40,140 bases of DNA from an uncultured bacterium (lineage in GTDB: Bacteria; Bacteroidota; Bacteroidia; Bacteroidales; CAIXTV01), in NCBI GenBank assembly GCA_903922465.1, contig CAIXTV010000274.1, forward strand, positions 1 to 40,140, given 5' to 3'. This document shows, piece after piece, positions 28,365 through 38,678 of the stretch. A model generated the notes under the pieces. The model worked only from the letters and a program-made list of their open reading frames with translations, ran no database searches and was not told where the DNA came from. A program made the translations under genes and the position numbers. The first letter of the stretch is position 1; the number at the start of each line of letters is the position of its first letter.

Positions 28365-28403
28365 CAAAATAAACACAATTTCAAAAACATTTCCCCCATT
28401 TTC

Positions 28404-28424
28404 AATTGTCAACTGTCAACTGTC
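28404..28424. repeat. Short AACTGTC heptamer repeat
   Basis: Three heptamers, AATTGTC then AACTGTC twice. As I recall, this pattern is scattered between genes in many Bacteroidota genomes. Confidence 0.6.
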
Positions 28425-28465
28425 CATTAAAAAAAAAGGCTCACCCCACCGGCAAGCCCTCTTCC

Positions 28466-28656
28466 AAACTTTAAATACTCCAAGCACTTTTAGCACTCCA
28501 AATACTCTAGGCACTTTAGGCACTCTAAGTACTTTAGGCACTCTAAGTGCTCTAGGCACTCTAGTTCACTCTAGGCACTCTAGTTCACTCTAGGCACTCT
28601 AGTTCACTCTAGCTCACTCTAGGCACTCTAGGCACTTTAAGTACTTTAGGCACTTA
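28466..28656. repeat. 9/10-bp degenerate tandem array (GCACTCTAG type)
   Basis: About 21 units of a 9-bp word, GCACTCTAG and variants (GCACTTTAG, GTACTTTAG, ATACTCCAA), with a 10-bp form TTCACTCTAG alternating with the 9-bp form between about 28562 and 28610. The left units are the most degenerate and the centre the most regular. The right end runs past the stop codon of the next gene (28646-28648) and supplies its last codons. Confidence 0.9.
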
Positions 28657-32655: not shown

Positions 32656-32676
32656 TATCACACAAAACAAGAATTA

Positions 32677-32832
32677 TTAAGACCCAAATTCCAAATTTCA
32701 AGTCCTAAAATCAAAGAATTTAAAACGCTAATTAACATTATGCAGAATAAACTCAAAACTATAAAAATTCAAAGCAAGTCCTTTTGGAAAGCCTTGGAAT
32801 TTGAAATTTGGAATTTGAGACTTGGGTCTTAA
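32677..32832. repeat. Inverted repeat element between tolC- and hlyD-type genes
   Basis: The left arm (32677-32702) reads TTAAGACCCAAATTCCAAAT and a few more bases. The right arm (32793-32832) is the inverse, CTTGGAATTTGAAATTTGG through to GGGTCTTAA, with about 12 extra bases. The 90-base centre is AT-rich and shows no gene. The element could fold into a long hairpin in the operon mRNA. Confidence 0.75.
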
Positions 32833-32895
32833 TTCATTCAAATAGAAATACATAAATAAACAATTGACAATAATTATTAATAAAGAGAAAAAGGT

Positions 32896-33819
32896 ATGAG
32901 AACTTTTAAAACAAAAATAAACAGGAGCGTTCAGTTTATAGTAATCATCGTGGTATTGATGCTGCAATCTTGTGGCAGTTCGAAGAAACATTCGGATGCT
33001 TCGGGGACATTCGAAGCCACGGAAGTGATAGTTTCAGCAGAGGCTACGGGCAAGATACTTGCATTTGACATTCAGGAAGGACAAACCCTCGAAGCCAATC
33101 AGAATATTGGTTATATCGATAGTTTGCAATTGTATTTGAAGAAGAAACAACTGCTCACCAATGTGAAATCAGCCGAAAGTCGCCGCCCTGATATCAGGAA
33201 ACAAATTGCTGCTTTGGAAGAGCAAATAAAAACGGCTCAAAACGAAAAGAAAAGGTTCGAAAAGTTAGTGAAAGCCAATGCTGCCAATCAAAAACAATTG
33301 GACGACATCAACGCTCAGATTGCTGTGCTTGAGAAACAATTGATAGCCCAACAGTCTACATTGACCAACACTACCACCGGCATCAGTGAAGATGTCTCCG
33401 GCGTCGAACTGCAGGTTGAACAACTGAACGACCAACTGAAAAAGTGTGTAATTATGAATCCCATCAAGGGAACGGTCTTGGTAAAATACGCCGAACAAAA
33501 CGAAATGACCATGCAAGGCAAAGCTCTTTATAAGATTGCCGATACCGAAAACATGTTGCTTCGGGCTTACATCACCTCCACTCAGCTTAATAAGTTAAAG
33601 ATTGGTCAAACCGTAAAAGTATTGTCCGATTTTGGCGAAAATGATACCAAAGAATACAAAGGCACTATAGTTTGGATATCCTCCAAAGCCGAATTCACCC
33701 CCAAAACCATTCAAACCAAAGACGAACGCGCTAATCTTGTGTATGCAGTGAAGATTGCGGTGAAAAATGATGGGCTGCTGAAGATTGGGATGTATGGGGA
33801 ATTGAGTATAGAGAATTAA
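32896..33819 (+). CDS. HlyD-type periplasmic adaptor lipoprotein (YbhG-like)
   Basis: 307 residues. The N-terminal hydrophobic stretch ends in the lipobox L-Q-S-C with lipidated Cys26, so it should be anchored in the membrane and face the periplasm. The biotinyl-lipoyl-like half motif is G-T-F-E-A-T-E-V-I-V-S-A-E-A-T-G-K-I (about 37-54), with the other half at C-V-I-M-N-P-I-K-G-T-V-L-V-K. Between them is a long coiled-coil hairpin (about 75-165, rich in K, E, Q, A), then the beta-barrel domain. It would link the ABC permeases to the TolC-type duct. As the third gene of the operon, it corresponds to YbhG in E. coli. Confidence 0.94.
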   Translation: MRTFKTKINRSVQFIVIIVVLMLQSCGSSKKHSDASGTFEATEVIVSAEATGKILAFDIQEGQTLEANQNIGYIDSLQLYLKKKQLLTNVKSAESRRPDIRKQIAALEEQIKTAQNEKKRFEKLVKANAANQKQLDDINAQIAVLEKQLIAQQSTLTNTTTGISEDVSGVELQVEQLNDQLKKCVIMNPIKGTVLVKYAEQNEMTMQGKALYKIADTENMLLRAYITSTQLNKLKIGQTVKVLSDFGENDTKEYKGTIVWISSKAEFTPKTIQTKDERANLVYAVKIAVKNDGLLKIGMYGELSIEN

Positions 33820-33847
33820 TAATTCACAATGAATAATTAATAATGAA
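33812..33847. repeat. ATTAATAATGAA-type repeat, copy 1
   Basis: Begins inside the last codons of the hlyD-type gene (stop at 33817-33819) and contains AGAATTAATAATTCAC and GAATAATTAATAATGAA. Related copies occur around the four-helix-bundle gene at 36904, 37325, 37449 and 37531. Confidence 0.7.
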
Positions 33848-33896
33848 ATATAGAATTGATTATGACATATATGAGTTCACTATATAAAGAGCGACA

Positions 33897-33966
33897 CGTC
33901 ATTGCGAGGAGGAACGACGAAGCAATCCCGAAGCTCAAAGATTGCTTCGCTACGCTCGCAATGACG
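33897..33966. repeat. GTCATTGCGAG palindromic element
   Basis: CGTCATTGCGAG (33897-33908) and CTCGCAATGACG (33955-33966) are exact inverse copies; inside them GAAGCAATC (33919-33927) and GATTGCTTC (33940-33948) form a second matched pair. The whole 70 bases can form a cruciform or RNA hairpin. Its GC content is well above that of the surroundings. This is, as I recall, a widely scattered intergenic palindrome found in many bacterial phyla. Confidence 0.85.
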
Positions 33967-33992
33967 TTTCAAATATTCATTATTGCTAATTC

Positions 33993-35744: not shown

Positions 35745-36908
35745 ATGAAAAACACAAATCCTTTTAAACAATTCATCGCAAAACGCTTTGCATTCCTGCA
35801 TAAAAGTTCCTTTCTTGCCTTTGTGCAGAAGGAATTTTATCATATTTTTCGCGATACCCGCACCATGCTTATCTTATTGGGCATGCCTATTATTCAGATT
35901 ATACTGTTTGGTTTTGCCATTACCACAGAAGTGAAGAATTCACAGATTGCCATTTACGATCCTTCAAACGACATTGCCACCCACCAAATAACTGACCGCA
36001 TTAAGACAAGTCAATACTTCGATTTGGTGAAATATATTAAGAATCCTGCCGAAATTAATTCTGTTTTTAAGGATGGAAAAGTGGGTTTGCTGATTGTTTA
36101 TGGTGAACACTTTAACGAGAACCTGATGCATACAGGGAAAGCCCAGATTCAAATCATAGCTGATGCCACTGATCCCAACATTGCCACCACCCTAATCTTT
36201 TATGCCAGCTCCATCATCAACTCCTATCAACTTGATATGATGAAACAGCTTAAAATTCCTTATCAAATTCAACCGGAGGTAAAACTTTTATACAATCCAC
36301 AGATGAAGGGTGCTTTTAATTTTGTTCCGGGTGTGTTGGGAATGATTTTGATGCTCATTTGTGCTATGATGACCTCCATTGCCATCGTTCGTGAGAAGGA
36401 AATGGGCACGATGGAAGTCCTATTAGTCTCACCCATGAAACCTATTCTTATCATCATTGCCAAAACCATTCCTTATTTCGTTATTTCTTTCGTAAACTTA
36501 ATCACGGTTTTGTTGCTTTCAGTCTTTGTGTTGAATATCCCTGTGGCAGGCAGTTTATTTTGGGTCATCATTGTGTCTTTACTTTTCATTTTTGTTTCCC
36601 TTTCTTTGGGTATGTTGGTTTCCACGCTTACCAATTCGCAAATGACCGCCATGCTGGTCTCGGGTATGGTGTTTATGATGCCTGTGATGCTCCTTTCGGG
36701 GATGATTTATCCAACAGAGAACATGCCGGCTCCACTTCAGATTGTTTCGAATATCATTCCTGCAAAATGGTTTATTATTTCCATTAAGAACTTAATGATA
36801 AAAGGCCTGGGCATCTCTTCTGTCCTAAGAGAAGTGACCATTCTCAGCTCTATGGCCGTGGTTCTGATAGCTATTAGTTTGAAAAAGTTTAAAAAGAGGT
36901 TGGAATAA
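35745..36908 (+). CDS. ABC-2 type permease 1 (YbhS-like)
   Basis: 387 residues. The layout is that of the ABC2_membrane_3 family: a first membrane segment (about 38-58, with M-L-I-L-L-G-M-P-I-I-Q-I-I), an extracytoplasmic domain (about 60-195, starting V-K-N-S-Q-I-A-I-Y-D-P-S-N), then five membrane segments from about 200. The cytoplasmic coupling region is V-R-E-K-E-M-G-T-M-E-V-L-L-V-S-P (about 220-235). The near-N-terminal F-V-Q-K-E-F-Y-H-I-F-R-D-T-R-T-M is typical. It forms the channel together with permease 2, which lies beyond a 657-base interruption. Confidence 0.94.
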   Translation: MKNTNPFKQFIAKRFAFLHKSSFLAFVQKEFYHIFRDTRTMLILLGMPIIQIILFGFAITTEVKNSQIAIYDPSNDIATHQITDRIKTSQYFDLVKYIKNPAEINSVFKDGKVGLLIVYGEHFNENLMHTGKAQIQIIADATDPNIATTLIFYASSIINSYQLDMMKQLKIPYQIQPEVKLLYNPQMKGAFNFVPGVLGMILMLICAMMTSIAIVREKEMGTMEVLLVSPMKPILIIIAKTIPYFVISFVNLITVLLLSVFVLNIPVAGSLFWVIIVSLLFIFVSLSLGMLVSTLTNSQMTAMLVSGMVFMMPVMLLSGMIYPTENMPAPLQIVSNIIPAKWFIISIKNLMIKGLGISSVLREVTILSSMAVVLIAISLKKFKKRLE

Positions 36909-36940
36909 TTAATAATGAAGAATTAATAATTAATAATGAA
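36904..36940. repeat. ATTAATAATGAA-type repeat, copy 2
   Basis: AATAATTAATAATGAAG then AATTAATAATTAATAATGAA. It begins in the last codon of permease 1 (stop at 36906-36908), so the gap to the four-helix-bundle gene starts exactly with the repeat. Confidence 0.75.
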
Positions 36941-36977
36941 AGGAAGAAAGAAGAATGTTGATAATTGGTAATATAAA

Positions 36978-37334
36978 ATGAAAGAAAACAATGTAATAAA
37001 AGAGAAATCATACTTGTTTGCATTACATGTAATTCGGGTATACAAAGTCTTAAGTTCTGAACAAAGAGAGTTTGTTCTTTCAAAACAAATGCTTAGGAGC
37101 GGAACTTCAATTGGCGCTAATATCAGAGAAGCTGAATTTGGTCAATCTAAAACAGATTTCATACATAAACTAAGCATATCATTAAAAGAAGCTAATGAAA
37201 CTGAATATTGGTTGATGCTTCTTAAAGATTCAGGATATATTGATGAAAAAACCTTTAATTCAATAGTGTATGAATGTATTGAATTGAAGAGATTGCTCAC
37301 AAGCATTATAAATACAGCAAAAAGGAATAATTAA
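36978..37334 (+). CDS. Four-helix-bundle protein (23S rRNA IVS-type)
   Basis: 118 residues. It matches the four helix bundle / S23 family pattern: S-Y-L-F-A-L-H-V-I-R-V-Y-K, then L-S-K-Q-M-L-R-S-G-T-S-I-G-A-N-I-R-E-A, then S-K-T-D-F-I-H-K-L-S-I-S-L-K-E-A-N-E-T-E-Y-W-L and a last helix. Members are found in intervening sequences of 23S rRNA genes and as stand-alone genes near repeats; related bundles (Avd) assist retroelements. Their exact job is unclear. Here it sits between the two permease genes of an efflux operon, bounded by direct repeat copies on both sides and by two inverted copies further right. This looks like a small mobile or transposed cassette. Confidence 0.93.
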   Translation: MKENNVIKEKSYLFALHVIRVYKVLSSEQREFVLSKQMLRSGTSIGANIREAEFGQSKTDFIHKLSISLKEANETEYWLMLLKDSGYIDEKTFNSIVYECIELKRLLTSIINTAKRNN

Positions 37335-37362
37335 TAATGTACAATTAAGAATTAATAATGAG
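37325..37362. repeat. ATTAATAATGAA-type repeat, copy 3
   Basis: Overlaps the last codons of the four-helix-bundle gene and contains AATAATTAATAATGTAC and TTAAGAATTAATAATGAGG. Same orientation as copy 2 on the other side of the gene. Confidence 0.7.
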
Positions 37363-37448
37363 GAAAAATTTAACTCATTAGCATGTTTTAAACACTATAA
37401 GTAAAACCTATGAATAAAACCATTCCAAATTCAGTCAAAACTTTCTTC

Positions 37449-37482
37449 CAATTATTAATTCTTCATTATTAATTTTTAATTG
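37449..37482. repeat. ATTAATAATGAA-type repeat, copy 4 (inverted)
   Basis: CAATTATTAATTCTTCATT then ATTAATTTTTAATTG, the inverse of copies 1-3. Confidence 0.7.
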
Positions 37483-37530
37483 AAAAAAGCCCCATGAAAA
37501 TAACACCTCGAATTTTCCCACTCCCTTGTT

Positions 37531-37566
37531 TTTCATTATTAATTCTTCATTATTAATTCTTAATTA
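37531..37566. repeat. ATTAATAATGAA-type repeat, copy 5 (inverted)
   Basis: CATTATTAATTCTTCATT followed by ATTAATTCTTAATT, running right up to the ATG of permease 2 at 37566. The repeat therefore forms the entire ribosome-binding region of that gene. Confidence 0.75.
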
Positions 37567-38678
37567 TGATTAATTTTCTATTAGTAAAAGAATTCAAGCA
37601 AATCCTTCGCAATCCTTTTTTGCCGAAGATTATTTTCATTTTCCCAGTAGTTATGTTGATAGTTCTCCCTTGGGCTGCCAACTTCGAAATTAAGAACATC
37701 AATCTGAATGTGGTGGATAATGACCATAGTACTTATTCGAAACGTTTGACGGATAAGATTGCTTCTTCTGGCTATTTTATCATTGCTGATGTATCGCATA
37801 ATTACACAGAAGCCCTTCATCAGATTGAAACCGATAAAGCGGATGCTATTCTTGAAATTCCTCCTCACTTTGAGCAGGACTTGGTGAAGGAACAAAGTGT
37901 AAAACTTATGATTTCGGCAAATGCAGTGAATGGAACCAAGGGGGGATTAAGTACGGCTTATCTTTCGGGTATCATTACCGACTTTGCTGCTGATGTTAGA
38001 AGCGAATGGGTGCAAACGGATAAAATTTCCGCTGCTCCCCTTATCGAAATTGTTTCGCAAAACTGGTTTAACCCCCATCTGAATTATAAAATCTTTATGG
38101 TGCCCGCAATTGTGGTGATGCTGATGACCATTATGGCTGGTTTTCTGCCTGCTCTGAACATAGTGAGTGAAAAAGAGGCTGGCACCATAGAGCAAATCAA
38201 TGTAAGTCCGGTCTCAAAGTTTACTTTTATTCTTTCAAAGCTAATCCCTTATTGGATTATCGGTTTCATTGTCCTGACGCTGTCTTTTGGGGTGGCTTTT
38301 CTGTTGTATGGTTTGGTTCCACTGGGGCACTTCTATACCATTTATTTCTATGCCGCTATCTATATTTTAGCCATTTCGGGCTTTGGGCTGGTAGTTTCAA
38401 ACTATTCGCAGACCATGCAGCAAGCAATGTTTGTGATGTATTTCTTTATGCTCATCGTAATCATCCTTAGTGGTTTGTTCACTCCCATAAACTCCATGCC
38501 TCAATGGGCGCAGAACATCACCATCTTCAATCCTCTAAAATATTTCATGCAAGTGATGCGCCTTGTTTATCTAAAAGGCAACAGCATTAGTGAACTTACT
38601 ACACAATTCATTGCGCTGGGTTCATTTGCGGTATTCTTTAATGTTTGGGCGGTGTTGAGTTATCAGAAGAAGAAGTGA
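37566..38678 (+). CDS. ABC-2 type permease 2 (YbhR-like)
   Basis: 370 residues with the same fold as permease 1. A first membrane segment (about 19-38, F-I-F-P-V-V-M-L-I-V-L-P-W-A-A) is followed by an extracytoplasmic domain (about 40-175, starting I-K-N-I-N-L-N-V-V-D-N-D-H-S), then five segments from about 180. The coupling region is V-S-E-K-E-A-G-T-I-E-Q-I-N-V-S-P. The N-terminal V-K-E-F-K-Q-I-L-R-N-P-F-L-P-K is typical. It is the last gene of the efflux operon. Its start codon abuts an inverted repeat, so its translation or transcription may be uncoupled from permease 1. Confidence 0.94.
   Translation: MINFLLVKEFKQILRNPFLPKIIFIFPVVMLIVLPWAANFEIKNINLNVVDNDHSTYSKRLTDKIASSGYFIIADVSHNYTEALHQIETDKADAILEIPPHFEQDLVKEQSVKLMISANAVNGTKGGLSTAYLSGIITDFAADVRSEWVQTDKISAAPLIEIVSQNWFNPHLNYKIFMVPAIVVMLMTIMAGFLPALNIVSEKEAGTIEQINVSPVSKFTFILSKLIPYWIIGFIVLTLSFGVAFLLYGLVPLGHFYTIYFYAAIYILAISGFGLVVSNYSQTMQQAMFVMYFFMLIVIILSGLFTPINSMPQWAQNITIFNPLKYFMQVMRLVYLKGNSISELTTQFIALGSFAVFFNVWAVLSYQKKK

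Follow-up and report, generated by a model that had tools for sequence, protein, structure and literature searches.

The closest described counterparts of the element reported here are the intervening sequences (IVS) of 23S rRNA genes, which in Coxiella and Leptospira carry an open reading frame (ORF) of the S23p/IVP family in the loop of a stem formed by terminal inverted repeats, and which are sporadic and horizontally spread. In the Coxiella IVS, GACAGAT heptads lie directly before an ORF of this family, the terminal stem is 28 bp long, and the first repeat carries an RNase III site; the ORF is seemingly not expressed, according to the authors of that study (PMC4990558).

Short tandem units are also known from intergenic regions. 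The STRR of cyanobacteria are tandem 7-nt units that form hairpins between operon genes, for example hupS and hupL; their description makes no connection with IVP genes (PMC2670836). The TAACTGA heptamer repeats of Beggiatoaceae adjoin start codons as intergenic direct 7-nt repeats and are patchily distributed across Cyanobacteria and Bacteroidetes, with no known mechanism (PMC4679880); they differ from the cassette described below in their single fixed unit, their direct orientation, and the lack of any reported IVP gene. In REP/RAYT systems (REPtrons), a small gene is bracketed by inverted repeats and gene-less copies are found elsewhere, while the Avd protein of diversity-generating retroelements has a homologous four-helix-bundle fold (PMC10053308). 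Among open-access papers, no report was found that ties IVP genes to heptad hairpins.

The window analyzed here is a stretch of 40,140 nucleotides from an uncultured member of the Bacteroidales (assembly GCA_903922465.1, contig CAIXTV010000274.1). It contains an efflux operon encoding TetR, TolC-like, and HlyD proteins, two ABC ATPases, and two ABC-2 permeases, with the following features around the locus of interest:

33817-33992, plus strand: second heptad hairpin of AATTAAT units, without an IVP gene, at the HlyD/ATPase 1 junction of the same operon
35745-36908, plus strand: ABC-2 permease 1, the upstream host gene (PF12698, 4.4e-50), stop codon TAA at 36906-36908
36907-36941, plus strand: heptad array A1, AATTAAT AATGAAG AATTAAT AATTAAT AATGAAA
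36978-37334, plus strand: IVP gene for a four-helix-bundle protein of 118 aa (PF05635, TIGR02436, relative 2rld)
37329-37363, plus strand: heptad array A2, AATTAAT AATGTAC AATTAAG AATTAAT AATGAGG, overlapping the end of the IVP gene
37450-37483, minus strand: inverted heptad array A3, paired with A2 in the predicted fold
37532-37565, minus strand: inverted heptad array A4, stopping at the permease 2 ATG, predicted to form the outer stem with A1
37566-38678, plus strand: ABC-2 permease 2, the downstream host gene (PF12698, 4.9e-48), ATG at 37566

The repeat-bounded interval of 657 bases between the permeases, which the initial annotation had singled out, is confirmed as the gap 36909-37565, and contains four heptad arrays and one gene. 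Array A1 (period-7 score 17.5) starts within the stop codon of permease 1; A1 and A2 are oriented as the host genes, and A3 and A4 run opposite. The repeat ATTAATAATGAA, which belongs to the AATTAAT, AATGAAG, and AATTAAG heptad arrays, has exact plus-strand copies at 36908 and 36929, plus-strand copies with one mismatch each to the right of the IVP gene at 37330 and 37351, and inverted copies, again exact, at 37462, 37532, and 37546. The layout proposed earlier, with same-direction repeats on both sides and inverted ones at the right, is therefore correct in outline, except that the right-hand plus-strand copies are imperfect and that the inverted copies number three, in two arrays, instead of two. 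With up to two mismatches, ATTAATAATGAA has 46 matches in the window against 19.8 (sd 4.6) after shuffling, a count reached by 0 of 100 shuffles.

In the predicted RNA fold of the cassette (z -3.65, 20 shuffles), an outer stem of A1 with A4 encloses the gene and A2 pairs with A3 in an inner stem; the A1-A4 stem is present in both the MFE and the centroid predictions. As modeled, the complementary termini would form a stem with the ORF in its loop, as in an IVS, and the tandem 7-nt intergenic units are able to form a hairpin, as in STRR. Most likely, the cassette is co-transcribed with the efflux operon. Unlike a 23S IVS, it separates two protein genes of an operon and, not being located in rRNA, is not to be filed as one; its stem, moreover, is itself made of heptads that vary by locus.

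The AATTAAT hairpin at the HlyD/ATPase 1 junction gives a score of 22 against the flanks of the cassette, and it has a REP-like palindrome, CGTCATTGCGAGGAGGAACGACGAAGCAATC, inside it. Arrays of other types occur elsewhere in the window without an IVP-family ORF. The gap between two minus-strand genes (28397-28655) has one array of the TTGACAG type and a long one of 9 nt, ACTCTAGGC, and the TolC/HlyD gap (32656-32895) has two AATTTGG-type arrays that are inverted relative to each other and lie far apart.

The IVP gene is the sole ORF of at least 80 aa in the permease gap. Its product matches PF05635 (23S_rRNA_IVP) with E 1.7e-30 and 105.8 bits (curated cut-off 33.8) and TIGR02436 with 2e-33 and 114.9 bits (curated cut-off 24), and it has a solved relative in 2rld (E 2.5e-37); IVP is a pentamer in a solved relative. 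These matches bear out the four-helix-bundle identity assigned by the initial annotation, which was also right to connect the gene with 23S rRNA intervening sequences. The median dN/dS of 0.11 in 13 close pairs shows strong purifying selection on the IVP protein, which sets it apart from the apparently unexpressed ORF of Coxiella. IVP genes are found in 107 of 148 genomes, at 0-18 copies each, and the source genome, a draft of 312 contigs, holds about a dozen besides that of the window. Viral carriage was set aside, as no relative was found in viral contigs; of two matches in phage records, the one inspected has no arrays. A role as retroelement helper, suggested earlier from related proteins, is unsupported because no reverse transcriptase shares a contig with an IVP gene: there is none at the window cassette, as there would be in a diversity-generating retroelement, nor on any IVP-bearing contig of the source genome, whose single match is on C306, a contig where the search for IVP genes found none.

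The flanks of 178 IVP genes were compared, all with both flanks available and picked by protein similarity only, from genomes of the same order and from GTDB species, which were scanned with a single protein query. These loci are not independent, gene calls in the retrieved stretches follow simple ORF rules, and the names of neighbor genes beyond the window (among them nuo, kor, mut, and sdh) come from reading translations by eye. Each left flank was scored against the reverse complement of all 178 right flanks: its own right flank ranks first in 68 cases, where 1 is expected, and within the top three in 96. Matching in the same direction is weak, with the own flank first in 17 cases. An arm score of at least 13 is reached by 129 of the 178 IVP genes versus 11 of 250 other small genes of the same stretches, and by 0 of 19 ParE genes; about a quarter of the IVP genes have no clear arms. 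In predicted RNA, left-right pairs have a median of 38 with the own flanks versus 17 with a swapped right flank (175 loci, p 8e-18), although the inverted arms could alternatively form a DNA cruciform.

The arms are made of short-period arrays, mainly of period 7 and less often of 8 or 9, with a score of at least 12 in at least one flank of 137 of the 178 genes and in none of the shuffles. On the left-arm strand, 76 of 106 period-7 units fit RRYNRRN, against 2 on the other strand and 43.5 (maximum 54) with shuffled letters; the Coxiella heptad GACAGAT also conforms to it. In 26 of 37 loci, both arms have the same letter at the free last position of the heptad (shuffled mean 10.1, maximum 22). 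Unit variants mostly do not keep their order from one arm to the other (p<0.05 in 7 of 57 loci; p 0.18 in the window), and since the arms share units but mostly not order, simple block copying is not shown; an origin as ordered block copies was set aside on this weak signal. Nearly all further IVP genes of the source genome are flanked by short-period arrays as well. The unit differs with each locus family (TTTAGACN, GGCAATC, GTGAATA, GATGTGG, AATTTGAA, GATTTGGT, and GGATTAA).

Arrays of this kind are not confined to IVP genes, which raises the possibility that heptad hairpins spread alone, as spacers, by polymerase slippage or template switching, and that IVP genes merely land as passengers in the same tolerant gaps. 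A 610-kb sample of the source genome holds 28 arrays of score at least 14, 24 of them intergenic; most are without an IVP gene, leaving about 20 intergenic arrays of this sort, or roughly one per 30 kb. ORF-less hairpins are also seen at operon junctions in three surveyed loci (L076, L118, and L234), as in the cyanobacterial hupS/hupL gap (PMC2670836), and GxxExxY nuclease-like genes (PDDEXK_3) are bracketed likewise in 15 of 24 cases, with looser, longer units. Repeats at junctions without such genes, which had been named as evidence against a cassette, thus do occur, but the 28 arrays correspond to about 0.03 expected per 620 bases of flank, against 124 of 178 IVP genes with flank arrays of score at least 14. 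ParE genes, likewise small and patchy, have no arms.

An argument against independent spread comes from the units themselves. Between genomes, and counting only pairs of loci without homologous neighbors, unit sharing climbs with IVP identity over six bins (1.6, 1.3, 4.1, 14.8, 28.7, and 80.4%), so the unit follows the protein in unrelated contexts; within one genome, by contrast, 0 of 77 pairs of dissimilar IVP loci share a unit. Common ancestry or a similar base composition could contribute to the trend between genomes, but neither explains the within-genome result. Because the unit tracks the protein across genomes and the loci of one genome differ, array and gene travel together, and on these sequence comparisons heptad unit and IVP protein are co-inherited. 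The passenger explanation is consequently considered unlikely, if still worth weighing.

Since GxxExxY genes are also bracketed, such hairpins may carry several kinds of cargo gene, IVP among them. At L139 (6832-7174), L176 (6950-7349), and L275-L304, GxxExxY genes, a second cargo family, are enclosed by inverted repeats that are specific to the locus and have units of about 10 nt (CACAGAG, GCAGAT). A TnpA_REP-like gene, identified by eye, has matching inverted flanks at L206 (1757-2333), with an IVP gene on the same stretch.

A different proposal would make IVP a transposition factor acting on single-stranded hairpins, as RAYT does on REP, with the ORF-less hairpins as its non-autonomous copies. 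A gene between inverted repeats, dispersed gene-less copies, and the co-inheritance of unit and protein all fit such a scheme. However, the cassette has no Y1 (TnpA_REP) transposase and no other ORF of 80 aa, IVP carries no known catalytic motif, and the dispersed near-identical palindromes typical of REPs are missing. The repeat is instead a short-period array, and its freely varying unit leaves no fixed sequence to be recognized. A REPtron-like element is, on these grounds, quite improbable.

The distribution of the gene within and outside the efflux operon bears on its mobility. Adjacent permease pairs with both ends in view were found at 27 loci in 60 genomes of the same order. None of these 27 relatives has an IVP gene between the two permeases, where the gap measures -4 to 171 bases as called; at L037, L041, and L028 it holds a short-period inverted array and no gene. 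The sporadic distribution expected of an IVS is therefore seen here too, the stable presence at this junction that would have spoken for a component of the pump is not, and the data support reading the IVP cassette as an insert, bounded by its own repeats, between permease 1 and permease 2. The comparison yielded no target-site duplication and no exact empty site in a close strain; with at most 62% identity in permease 2, the relatives are too distant to fix the exact ends of the cassette.

Twelve other genomes carry close relatives of the window's IVP (58-74% identical) in this efflux operon, spread over three junctions different from that of the window; among these carriers, only the window has the gene between the permeases. 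The other positions are:

HlyD/ATPase 1: L079, L081, L083, L118
ATPase 1/ATPase 2: L076, L090
ATPase 2/permease 1: L075, L077, L078, L080, L090, L095, L103

The operon of L090 carries two such genes. All the efflux-operon members except L118 fall into a single clade (SH-aLRT 85), together with L084 and L089, which sit outside the operon in nuoD/nuoH and MFP/RND gaps, and the operon tree requires at least six changes of place among the carriers. Relatives at three other junctions of the same operon show that the cassette changes place within it, and the phylogeny suggests repeated shifts between junctions. The interpretation given in the initial annotation is supported in part; it overlooked the inverted-repeat hairpin with its locus-specific unit, the presence of the gene's clade at other junctions of this operon, and the generality of the pattern in the family. 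Members of other IVP clades are found at the ATPase 2/permease 1 junction in L059 and, as judged by eye from the translation, in L224. Some carrier operons have ORF-less hairpins of the same unit at other junctions, of which that of L118 is a near copy of about 90 bases; taken over all operons, another junction holds an array of the same unit in 10 of 32 cases versus 17% with foreign flanks, a modest excess. The ATPase 1/ATPase 2 gap of L075 holds four copies of a TTTCCGC..GCGGAA palindrome between TTAAGAG heptad arms.

That IVP is a subunit or regulator of the pump, selected in this operon, as its clade in 13 genomes (the window's included) and the family-wide dN/dS of 0.11 might suggest, is very improbable and was rejected on placement, given that the gene is missing from most relatives, that its junction within the operon varies, that members of its own clade (L084 and L089) lie in other operons, and that other clades occupy gaps such as korA/korB, mutA/mutB, and hsdS/hsdR.

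Plasmids extend the pattern to further phyla. All nine plasmid IVP loci inspected have locus-specific inverted heptad arms (scores 19-39); they belong to Bacteroidota, Bacillota, Spirochaetota, and Cyanobacteriota, and their sites include hsdS/hsdR, cas2/cas1, and drmD/pglX gaps. Six are cyanobacterial, so that arms of the STRR type are here found together with an IVP gene, in contrast to STRR as described. On an Anabaena and a Nostoc plasmid (L351 and L353), the IVP gene lies between cas2 and cas1, antisense to both, and co-transcription with host genes is therefore not obligatory.

The interpretation favored here is that 36907-37565 is probably a mobile hairpin cassette of a widespread kind, the mRNA counterpart of the 23S IVS. 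In such a cassette, an IVP gene occupies the loop of a long predicted stem, and inverted arrays of a unit of 7-9 nt, specific to the locus, make up the arms. It lodges in intergenic gaps, in this case from the permease 1 stop codon to the permease 2 ATG. Judging from the predicted pairing, the arms may pair in the transcript through any register of the unit and then be cut by RNase III; the ORF would leave as its own RNA, and the insert would thereby be tolerated, as in a 23S IVS. The IVP protein might bind the arms as nucleic acid and keep or copy the element. Movement within an operon could use same-unit arrays at neighboring junctions, by recombination or template switching, whereas longer moves would follow horizontal transfer, and the ORF-less hairpins would be reduced derivatives of the cassette. 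More tentatively, IVP genes and their locus-specific inverted heptad arrays may form one mobile class without a known transposase, spanning at least four phyla, in which members in mRNA operons, 23S IVS, and STRR hairpins are three faces of the same element and IVP builds, matches, or moves the arms; this broader proposal is possible, but far from established.

Around the IVP family, the same arrangement recurs in several phyla with repeat letters that differ at nearly every site, and it shifts between junctions, which suggests a type of mobile element that has so far been overlooked and is akin to the long-known interruptions of rRNA genes. The rule that an IVP gene comes with matched, locus-specific heptad arms joins several long-standing puzzles, namely the role of IVP, the movement of 23S IVS, and the origin of heptanucleotide hairpins, and gives IVP proteins a testable substrate. 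It also adds a class of operon inserts, placed between genes that encode subunits (in efflux, nuo, kor, sdh, mut, hsd, and cas operons), where they may cut or regulate the transcripts of their hosts.
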